This document shows, piece by piece, positions 2,952 to 12,012 of a stretch of DNA of 64,000 nt. Below the pieces are notes generated by a model. It did no database searches. It was not told where the DNA came from and was given only the letters and a program-made list of their open reading frames with translations. The stretch's first letter is position 1. Each line of letters begins with the position of its first letter. The DNA is from Plastoroseomonas hellenica. Lineage in GTDB: Bacteria > Pseudomonadota > Alphaproteobacteria > Acetobacterales > Acetobacteraceae. Made by a program: the position numbers and the translations under genes. The DNA lies in NCBI RefSeq assembly GCF_018129085.1, contig NZ_JAAGBB010000013.1, positions 1 through 64,000 on the forward strand. The letters are read 5' to 3'.

Positions 2952-3028
2952 GGAACAGCCGTTACGGCGGCGCTGCGGCATGTGTCCGCCTGCAAAAGGC
3001 AATCAAGCCGTCACACGGGAAAAGACAC

Positions 3029-3253
3029 ATGACCTCTCAGATGTTCGACACCGAGACCATGATCCACCTGCATGCGCGGGCCGCTGAAGCCGTGCCGCAG
3101 CCGGCATCGCGCAGCCCCTTCGGCGCGATCTCGCGCTGGTGGCGCGCCCGGCGCGACGCGCAGCAACTCGATGCCCTGAGCAACGAGACGCGGAAGGATA
3201 TCGGCCTGCCGCCGCGCAACGCCTACACGACGATGCCGGACTGGCCGCGCTGA
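3029..3253 (+). CDS. DUF1127 (YjiS-like) small protein
   Basis: Small basic protein of 74 residues. The C-terminal half, FGAISRWWRARRDAQQLDAL followed by SNETRKDIGLP, is a DUF1127 domain: an Arg/Trp-rich helix, then the conserved KDIGL-type motif. The ATG at 3029 is preceded by a purine-rich GGGAAAAG and gives the family's usual length; an upstream in-frame ATG would add an unrelated tail. Known DUF1127 proteins in alphaproteobacteria affect RNA turnover, phosphate or carbon metabolism. The role here is inference only. Confidence 0.8.
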   Translation: MTSQMFDTETMIHLHARAAEAVPQPASRSPFGAISRWWRARRDAQQLDALSNETRKDIGLPPRNAYTTMPDWPR

Positions 3254-3354
3254 CGCGCTGGCCGCGGCGACCGCACCCTCGGCGCCGGTCGCCGCGCACC
3301 GGAGCGTGAGCTTCACGCGGCGAAGCCCACACCCGCATCCACACACCGCGCCTC

Positions 3355-3496
3355 ATACCAACGGACCGGTCGCTTGGCCGGTCCGAGGCCGCGAATGCGG
3401 CCCGCCGCAAGTGCGGCGAAAGCCAAGCCGCACGGATGTGCGGCGCGTCACGCCGAAGGCGTGCCTTCGGCACGACGCCTTTGAGGGCGCTGGTAT
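3355..3496. repeat. Multi-hairpin non-coding element with inverted ends
   Basis: The 375-bp gap before the molybdenum hydroxylase operon holds a compact element. Its ends are ATACCAACG (3355-3363) and CGCTGGTAT (3488-3496), inverted copies matching 8 of 9. Between them lie six tandem perfect hairpins: 3363-3384 (7-bp stem), 3387-3402 (6 bp, loop GAAT), 3403-3418 (6 bp, loop AAGT), 3427-3444 (7 bp, loop GGAT), 3449-3463 (6 bp, loop GAA) and 3461-3473 (5 bp, loop TTC). The last two overlap and compete. A further 6-bp hairpin sits outside at 3503-3519. I see no open frame with coding character. It looks like a MITE or REP-like repeat. Confidence 0.75.
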
Positions 3497-3628
3497 AACT
3501 TCCGGCATGGGCTATGCCGATCCGGATTGCCGGCCTAACCTTCCCACTCCCGATGCATCCAGTGCGTCCGCCCAGCAACAAGATGACGTCCAAGACCGGC
3601 GGGCCGCGAAGGGAGTGGAAGATCGACA

Positions 3629-4498
3629 ATGACGGATACCCGATACCTCGCGCCGCAGACGCTGGATGAGGCGGTCGGCGCCTTCGCGGCGGCCGCGGGC
3701 GCGGCCCGCATCCTGGCGGGCGGCACCGACCTGCTGGTGCAGATGCGCGCCGGCCTGCTGCGGCCAGGCCTGATCATCGATATCAAGAAGATCGAGGAGA
3801 TGACGGCGATCGTGGAGGAGCCCGATGGCGGCTTCCGCGTCGGCGCCGCCGTCTCCGGCGCGGCACTCGCCGAGCATCCGCGCTTCGGCCAGGTCTGGCC
3901 GGGCGTGCTGGAGGCGGTGAACCTGATCGGCTCCACCCAGGTGCAGGGCCGCGCCTCCCCGGGCGGCAATCTCTGCAACGCCTCGCCCGCCGGCGACAGC
4001 GTGCCGGCGATGATCGCGGCCGGTGCGGTGGTCACCGTGCAGGGCCCGAACGGGCGCCGGCAGATGCCGGTGGAGGCTGTACCGGCCGGCCCCGGCCGCA
4101 CCAACCTCACGCCGGGCGAGATCCTGGTCAGCTTCGCGCTGCCGGCCCGGCCGAAGGGCTCGGGCGATGCCTATCTGCGCATGATCCCGCGTACGGAGAT
4201 GGACATCGCGGTGGTCGGGGTCGGCGTCAGCCTGACGATCCAGGGCGGCACCGTCACCGCGGCGCGTGTCGGCCTCGGCGCCGTGGCGCCGACCGTGCTG
4301 CTGGTCGCGGATGCCGCCGATGCGCTGATCGGATCGAAGCTCGACGACGCGGCGCTGGAGGCGGCGGCCGCCGCCTGCCGCGCCGCCTGCCGCCCGATCG
4401 ACGACAAGCGCGGCACCATCGTCTACCGCACCAAGGTCGCCGGCGTGCTGCTGAAGCGCACCGTCGCGATCGCCGCCGAACGCGCCGGGAGGGCCTGA
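3629..4498 (+). CDS. Molybdenum hydroxylase FAD-binding (medium) subunit
   Basis: FAD subunit of a xanthine dehydrogenase/CO dehydrogenase-type molybdenum hydroxylase, 289 residues. It passes electrons from the Fe-S subunit to the acceptor. The FAD-binding motif AGGTDLLVQMR is at residues 30-40. The second motif is GRASPGGNLCNASPAGDS near residue 115, a variant of the usual TIGGNL. The CoxM-type C-terminal domain is present. It is the first gene of a three-gene operon, followed after 4 bp by the Fe-S subunit. The substrate is unknown; candidates are N-heterocycles, aldehydes or aromatic CoA esters. Confidence 0.93.
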   Translation: MTDTRYLAPQTLDEAVGAFAAAAGAARILAGGTDLLVQMRAGLLRPGLIIDIKKIEEMTAIVEEPDGGFRVGAAVSGAALAEHPRFGQVWPGVLEAVNLIGSTQVQGRASPGGNLCNASPAGDSVPAMIAAGAVVTVQGPNGRRQMPVEAVPAGPGRTNLTPGEILVSFALPARPKGSGDAYLRMIPRTEMDIAVVGVGVSLTIQGGTVTAARVGLGAVAPTVLLVADAADALIGSKLDDAALEAAAAACRAACRPIDDKRGTIVYRTKVAGVLLKRTVAIAAERAGRA

Positions 4499-9495: not shown

Positions 9496-9948
9496 TCAGG
9501 CAGCGGGCCTGATGAAGCCGAGCTGGGTGAGCGCGGTGACGCCATCATCGAGGCCGATCTCCTCGGCGATGCGGCCGTCCTTCACGCGCAGCACCGTGGT
9601 GCCGGTGAAGTGCATCTTCCGCCCGGTCGCGGCCGGCAGCCGGCCTGCCAGGAAGTCATCGAAGGCGGGGCCGGTATGGGTGCCGCCGCCTTCCCATTGG
9701 CCGACGACGTAATCGCCCTCCGCGATCAGCTCCGCCGTGCCCCAGAATTTCAGGTCGGGGAAGGCGCTCCGGAAGCCGGTCATGAAGGCCTTGATGTCGG
9801 CATGGCCCCGGCGCGGCGCGTGCAGCGAGTATTTCAGCAGCATGTCCGGTGCGGCGATATCGTCGATGACCGAGAGATTGCAGGTCTCGCCCCAGAATTC
9901 GGTGAACCAGCGGCCGACCACGGCCTTGTTGTCGTCCAGTCTGCTCAT
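9496..9948 (-). CDS. SnoaL-like polyketide cyclase family protein
   Basis: 150-residue protein of the SnoaL/NTF2-like alpha+beta barrel fold. Typical features are VGRWFTEFW near the start, ADIKAFMTGFRSAFPDLKF in the middle, GDYVVGQWEGGGTHTG, then GRKMHFTGTTVLRVKDGRIA. The start at 9948 follows an AAAGGG and removes a basic tail of 33 residues that has no homologous character. Members are epoxide hydrolases, cyclases or proteins of unknown function, so the reaction is not predictable. Confidence 0.85.
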   Translation of the reverse strand: MSRLDDNKAVVGRWFTEFWGETCNLSVIDDIAAPDMLLKYSLHAPRRGHADIKAFMTGFRSAFPDLKFWGTAELIAEGDYVVGQWEGGGTHTGPAFDDFLAGRLPAATGRKMHFTGTTVLRVKDGRIAEEIGLDDGVTALTQLGFIRPAA

Positions 9949-11896: not shown

Positions 11897-12012
11897 AAAC
11901 ATACCAACCTGATCGCCGGGCCCAGGGCGCTGAGCTGACAGGTATGGACGGTTGGTAAGCTGTCACGGAGACATCAAGCAACCGACGCCCGACAGAAATG
12001 GTTGGTATGTTT
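11897..12012. promoter_or_regulatory. GntR operator: two 13-bp inverted copies plus a third half-site
   Basis: AAACATACCAACC (11897-11909) and its exact reverse complement GGTTGGTATGTTT (12000-12012) flank the promoter region of the GntR gene. A third, shorter copy GGTTGGTA lies at 11950-11957. The right copy ends 11 bases before the regulator ATG. Three spaced copies suggest cooperative binding or a repression loop, with autorepression the simplest reading. Confidence 0.75.

Follow-up and report, generated by a model that had tools for sequence, protein, structure and literature searches.

A hairpin-rich genomic repeat of Plastoroseomonas hellenica, very probably a MITE with ISAli3-like IS630 ends

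Among bacterial MITEs, the Correia/NEMIS elements of Neisseria and the RUP elements of pneumococcus are related to IS630. Compared by description, they resemble the element reported here in being short, intergenic, present in many copies and associated with an IS630-type transposase, and differ from it in duplicating TA where the present element duplicates TNA; to our knowledge, neither contains such an array of separate hairpins. Duplication of TA, not TNA, is characteristic of IS630 elements, and IS5/IS1031 elements give a TNA duplication. Several palindromes between genes are also found in RIME/ABC and other intergenic mosaic elements of the Rhizobiales, to which our element can be likened, again by description, as a multi-palindromic intergenic sequence. 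The ISAli3-like IS630 elements of Azospirillum, Rhodovastum, Roseicella and others mostly have TACCA ends and a TNA duplication, like our element; unlike it, they measure ~1.16-1.18 kb (well-anchored copies) and carry a transposase, and an unsystematic look at them did not reveal the hairpin core. REPs tagged with GTAG or CGTC are, according to the available part of PMC3733652, likewise palindromic and located 3′ of genes in convergent and tandem gaps, but they are units of 20-40 bp with the tag at one end. In the literature searched, mostly titles and abstract openings, we found no published description of the element, nor ISAli3 by name, and the available part of a MITE review (PMC10969869) mentions neither IS630, Acetobacter nor Roseomonas. 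The repeat family, its TNA target and its shared covarying core are described here as new.

Anatomy of the window element

The window is the whole 64,000-nucleotide stretch of P. hellenica DNA that was analysed. The element proper occupies window positions 3356-3495 (140 bp) and is one copy of a genomic repeat family, type I. Its neighbours are a DUF1127 gene (3041-3253), whose stop codon is ~100 bp away, and the FAD subunit gene (3629-4498), the first gene of a molybdopterin dehydrogenase operon. Its parts are the following:

3353-3355, + strand: TCA, the TNA triplet on the left, presumably what remains of the target duplication, different from the TAA on the right
3356-3364, + strand: left terminal inverted repeat TACCAACGG, resembling the ends of ISAli3-type IS and of the copies in G036, a genome of the same family
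3362-3385, + strand: hairpin H1, a 10-pair stem including one G-T; helix 1 of the covariation alignment
3387-3402, + strand: hairpin H2, GGCCGC-GAAT-GCGGCC, also found in a second family, type II
3403-3418, + strand: hairpin H3, CGCCGC-AAGT-GCGGCG, from the fold and the pairing counts
3419-3427, + strand: conserved linker AAAGCCAAG, common to types I and II
3427-3444, + strand: hairpin H4, with a GGAT loop and a variable stem
3446-3477, + strand: optional module B, CGTC...GACG, a compound hairpin
3480-3487, + strand: conserved TTTGAGGG, the closing part of the core
3488-3495, + strand: right terminal inverted repeat CGCTGGTA; hairpin H5, which elsewhere lies between the core and this end, is missing
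3496-3498, + strand: right TNA triplet TAA, from the triplet reading of the copies

The initial annotation had described six perfect hairpins with 5-7 bp stems between inverted ends. Those ends, ATACCAACG (3355-3363) and CGCTGGTAT (3488-3496), are inverted at 8 of 9 positions, and the two overlapping hairpins, CACGCCGAAGGCGTG (3449-3463) and GTGCCTTCGGCAC (3461-3473), are present, as is the pair that encloses the last one, AAGGCGT (3456-3462) with ACGCCTT (3475-3481). The hairpin array is therefore real, but the H1 stem is longer than described and imperfect, and the last two hairpins and their enclosing pair form the single compound hairpin of module B, so that the minimum-energy fold consists of five hairpins plus weaker outer pairs. 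The RNA fold energy was -100.7 kcal/mol, whereas shuffled sequences averaged -73.7 kcal/mol (z -6.4), and the DNA fold gave a z of -5.4; in both cases, none of 200 shuffles was as low. The element had also been judged non-coding, and both open reading frames that cross it (108 aa on the + strand, 3306-3632, and 208 aa on the - strand, 3003-3629) were rejected by a codon-usage gene caller. The end motif alone is unremarkable, with 6 matches in the window at ≤1 mismatch against 3.4 expected. With its differing triplets and missing H5, the window copy looks old. Elsewhere in the window, an inverted pair ATACCAACC at 11901 and 12000 (11901-12008, ~100 bp apart) is perhaps an operator; it was set aside as a further copy, since it shows none of the hairpin core.

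Copies, terminal repeats and target site

Many copies were found in the same genome (7.28 Mb, 161 contigs) by BLAST, by a pattern for H2 and by a covariance model, and the single copy lacking conserved ends and covariation that would have spoken against a mobile repeat is not what we observed: copies, ends and covariation were all found. A BLAST search with 3340-3510 gave a match at each of the 40 candidates scored out of 254, in 52 aligned pieces. The H2 motif, with ≤2 mismatches, matched 257 times and its reversed control 10 times (types I and II together), and a core model built from 14 cores matched 116 of 150 scored candidates at E≤0.01, some of them type II or mixed copies. The type I sample is biased, as its members were found with the window sequence and with a model built from such copies. 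Compared side by side, they share a plan that runs from TACCAACGG through H1, H2, H3, AAGCCAAG and H4 to CCCGGCGTYTGAGGG, H5 and finally CGCTGGTA, many copies being without one part or another. Module B may occupy either of two sites, the second in the window copy; its exact pattern was present in 18 of 363 loci examined, always in or beside a copy of a type I or II element.

The clearest view of the ends came from G036, where the left-end pattern occurred at 40 places, 39 of them exact, and its reversed control at none. Thirty of these loci were read, of which 16 were complete, 12 were cut by contig ends and 2 had no right end. Identical TNA triplets flanked 15 of the 16 complete copies (shuffled mean 4.1, maximum 12), and in 6 of the 16 the duplicated triplet was, by the gene caller, the stop codon of the flanking gene. 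Most of the G036 copies are 157 bp long, and the 11 of this modal length are within 0-2 bases of the commonest sequence. In the P. hellenica genome, both ends are kept (≥7 of 9 bases) in 13 of 52 copies, with lengths of 83-192 bp, and the triplets are identical in 7 of the 13, which is not above chance (shuffled mean 5.2; reached by 2,577 of 20,000 shuffles); these copies look older. The search for a target duplication thus succeeded in G036 and not in the P. hellenica genome, the window copy with its TCA and TAA included. Thirty P. hellenica copies have a left-hand neighbour gene on the same strand, and in 11 of them the end of this gene is no more than one base from the TNA. We conclude that the element inserts at TNA and duplicates the triplet; where this triplet is a stop codon, as it sometimes is, the stop is restored and the gene is left whole.

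For the gene context, genes were called with a codon-usage caller made for this analysis, and three rows from L165 (two duplicates of L026 and one type II fragment) were removed before counting. The 52 type I copies lie in 18 convergent, 32 tandem and 2 divergent gaps, compared with 94, 491 and 93 among 678 sampled gene pairs and with 29, 99 and 60 among sampled gaps of ≥150 bp. None of the 52 is inside a called gene. Their location is mostly at gene 3′ ends, with no tie to the hydroxylase operon, and their orientation relative to tandem genes is weak (20 versus 12).

An autonomous element with similar ends was reached through the exact end TNATACCARCGG, which gave 22 matches in the P. hellenica genome and 14 in G026, against 0 for the reversed control. 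G026 is probably the same genome as Roseicella sp. DB1501 (G090), because the two share match coordinates. One of its loci, L330, is an element that measures 1,172 bp, is flanked by TTA on either side, has AGCCAAGGG beside one end and contains two overlapping frames, one encoding DDE_3 and the other helix-turn-helix domains. By tblastn, relatives were found in 376 plasmid records, and among the 30 listed most were annotated as IS630 family and some as ISAli3. We examined 17 IS copies, namely the G026 element and 16 plasmid relatives taken from those 30. Identical TNA triplets flank 12 of the 17; of the 5 with differing triplets, three represent a single insertion common to Roseomonas plasmids, and two are poorly anchored. 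As anchored, 11 of the 17 begin with TACCA. No ISAli3-type IS was found in ~1.06 Mb (overlaps included) of P. hellenica sequence. IS5/IS1031-type partners were rejected, as none of 2 PF01609 loci in the P. hellenica genome, and none of 11 PF13340 loci there and in G036 (one IS occurring in both sets), lies within inverted TACCA[AG]C ends. Around one IS5-type gene (L268:1405-2250), inverted repeats CTAGGGTCCGGACCC stand 846 bp apart and are unlike the MITE ends.

When a 13.5-kb stretch was compared with two congeners (G001 and G002), a type I copy and a type II fragment were each missing from the orthologous place in both, the alignment showing absence and not the exact junction, as the spacers have diverged. 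A second type I copy (L165, ~9543-9641) sits at a synteny break with both congeners and could not be scored. A 139-base consensus matched 14 of 80 genomes, P. hellenica included, at E≤0.001 (up to 10 candidates scored per genome); three of them, G054, G058 and G063, belong to other families of the class. The core model, with up to 150 candidates scored per genome, matched 11 of 18 named genomes: Roseicella sp. DB1501 (105 matches), Roseomonas sp. CECT 9278 (42), Roseicella aerolata (31), Neoroseomonas oryzicola (21), N. marina (21), N. alba (11), Siccirubricoccus sp. G192 (8), S. phaeus (2), Belnapia arida (1), Paracraurococcus ruber (5) and Paracraurococcus sp. LOR1-02 (5). It found no match in Roseococcus pinisoli, a Rubritepida MAG, a MAG labelled Asaia bogorensis, Reyranella massiliensis, Thalassobaculum fulvum, Nisaea denitrificans or one Bradyrhizobium. 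Because the model covers the core, a match to it does not by itself indicate IS630 ends.

The core outside the IS630 ends

The second family, type II, is ~155 bp long and has H2, AAGCCAAG, H4 and CCGGCGNYTGAGG in common with type I, without the TACCA ends or any other terminal repeats. All 150 scored candidates matched its model at E≤4.2e-12, a few of them also in the type I model list, and the genome holds about 150 copies or more. The context of 64 copies (L164:7862-8012, L163:16082-16239 and 62 others, from the upper part of the match list and from sampled contigs) was strand-specific: a gene 3′ end lies on one fixed side in 59 of the 64, at a median distance of 9 bp. Read in the direction of that gene, type II follows a T-rich octamer and a G. 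The octamers before type II average 4.64 T, against 1.24 at 2,044 random points after stop codons, and 51.6% of them have ≥5 T, against 0.6% at the random points. Several copies come after apparent intrinsic terminators, as judged by eye. No Y1 transposase was found in the P. hellenica genome, and no high-scoring type II was seen in 43 loci of other genomes, mostly chosen by type I matches. At L182, L195, L189 and L177, adjacent type II copies form opposite pairs in convergent-gene gaps, their GCGGCCGC ends facing each other, and at L170, L177, L198, L205 and L209 short partial copies (NCCTCARNCGCCGG... and a T-rich run) stand in tandem directly upstream of a full copy.

In G013, cores form tandem arrays (L168:1142-1650) that repeat every ~99 bp, the units being joined by a similar T-rich junction. 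Since the core also occurs without the IS630 ends, in type II and in these arrays, a MITE does not explain the whole of it. One could suppose that the core is an independent mobile structured element, that type II inserts strand-specifically behind a T-rich octamer and G, after stops and terminators, by means of neither a terminal-repeat DDE transposon nor a Y1/RAYT system, and that the window element is a core captured between IS630 ends; we put this forward tentatively, as an unlikely but serious proposal.

Pairing of the hairpins and competing explanations

The hairpins keep pairing through compensatory change. In an alignment that was fitted to the structure, and whose figures are therefore biased towards it, 97.8% of cells are paired (53 distinct aligned rows) and 26 of 32 pairs have changed on both sides, and all 500 shuffles scored lower on each of five measures; when partners are slid out of register, pairing falls to 29-43%. 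Such change, together with the rarity of divergent, promoter-bearing gaps among type I copies and the fixed gene 3′ end beside type II, which shares the core, would suit a structured RNA at mRNA 3′ ends, selected as a terminator, stabiliser or regulator. The initial annotation had offered a structured RNA preceding the hydroxylase operon; the tie to that operon fell away with copies mostly at gene 3′ ends elsewhere, and an additional role as RNA may still exist. A selected RNA function, which is compatible with a MITE, nevertheless seems to us rather improbable: type I is only weakly oriented to tandem genes, neither the window nor six additional 20-kb stretches gave an Rfam family at gathering score, other matches being sub-threshold, and most changes are full Watson-Crick swaps with few G-U, which palindrome repair at the DNA level or exchange of modules fits at least equally. 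Cells changed on both sides number 237 and G-U cells 22, about ten to one; the 22 G-U and 10 A-C among 1,605 cells gave a strand test of G-U against A-C too weak to decide. A symmetric count of H4 (types I and II together) found 102 hairpins in 103 segments, with 28 distinct stem sequences and only 4 of 631 pairs not Watson-Crick, 1 of them G-U, by a method that cuts stems back at terminal mismatches. The type II count of G-U and A-C, inflated by one doubtful model pair, and the H1 count, into which type II is mixed, were not used. So many different stems with so few mispairs are what template-switch correction of quasi-palindromes would leave, that is, events in DNA, not selection on a transcript, that keep the hairpins perfect. 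Strong selection, or copies trading entire hairpins, would give the same picture, though, and the H4 trimming and the use of counts without a reconstructed order of single changes weaken the case, so that we regard this explanation, also compatible with a MITE, as an appreciable possibility that falls short of even.

The other origin proposed at the outset, a REP-like repeat, did not hold up. A REP or BIME-type repeat, made of palindromes with a GTAG or CGTC tag and mobilised by a REP-associated tyrosine transposase, would account for a palindromic, intergenic sequence mostly 3′ of genes, as the available part of PMC3733652 has it for REPs, and CGTC and GACG do bound module B. However, PF01797, the Y1 transposase, was not found in the P. 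hellenica genome, and with it no RAYT partner as for GTAG (in the control, 5 of 14 known genomes gave a match). It is DDE transposons that have terminal repeats and duplicate TNA, and the element is 140 bp long with terminal repeats, not a tagged palindrome of 20-40 bp. CGTC families, in the same part of that paper, have A/T in the first two stem positions, an 8-9 bp stem and a CCA tail, and are missing in Acetobacteraceae; the hairpin beside the CGTC of module B (CACGCC-GAA-GGCGTG) is short-stemmed, with A-T then C-G after CGTC, and no CCA tail. We therefore consider a REP origin very improbable. That the hairpins are a chance cluster has next to no probability: short hairpins are common in so GC-rich a genome, but the fold energy (z -6.4), hundreds of copies and low reversed controls (10 versus 257 for H2; 0 versus 40 for the G036 end) already refute it.

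The element is very probably a non-autonomous DNA transposon, a MITE, with ISAli3-like IS630 ends, as one reading in the initial annotation had it. It is short and non-coding, with conserved terminal inverted repeats and many dispersed copies, near-identical in G036, as recent movement would leave them; to this are added the TNA duplication in G036, an autonomous IS with like ends and duplication and a copy absent in congeners. Counting against it are the P. hellenica copies, of which few keep both ends and whose triplets agree no more often than by chance, the differing triplets of the window copy and of 5 of the 17 IS copies, the search of ~1.06 Mb of P. hellenica sequence that gave no ISAli3-type IS, the TA duplication characteristic of IS630 and the occurrence of the core without these ends. 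An IS630 transposase supplied in trans would bind the TACCAAC/GTTGGTA ends and move the element into TNA, with duplication of the triplet. Because TGA and TAA are TNA triplets, insertion into either stop codon would regenerate the stop; copies on stop codons would do little harm and persist, and would therefore gather at gene 3′ ends, where their hairpins may affect mRNA ends.

These results connect a repeat that is abundant in Roseomonas-like Acetobacteraceae with one group of IS630 elements. That such elements can occupy stop codons has a simple explanation in the duplicated TNA triplet, which restores the stop. The placement of type II after T-rich octamers, on one strand, raises the question of how it spreads, and the covarying hairpins offer a testable case of palindromes that alter their sequence while remaining perfect.
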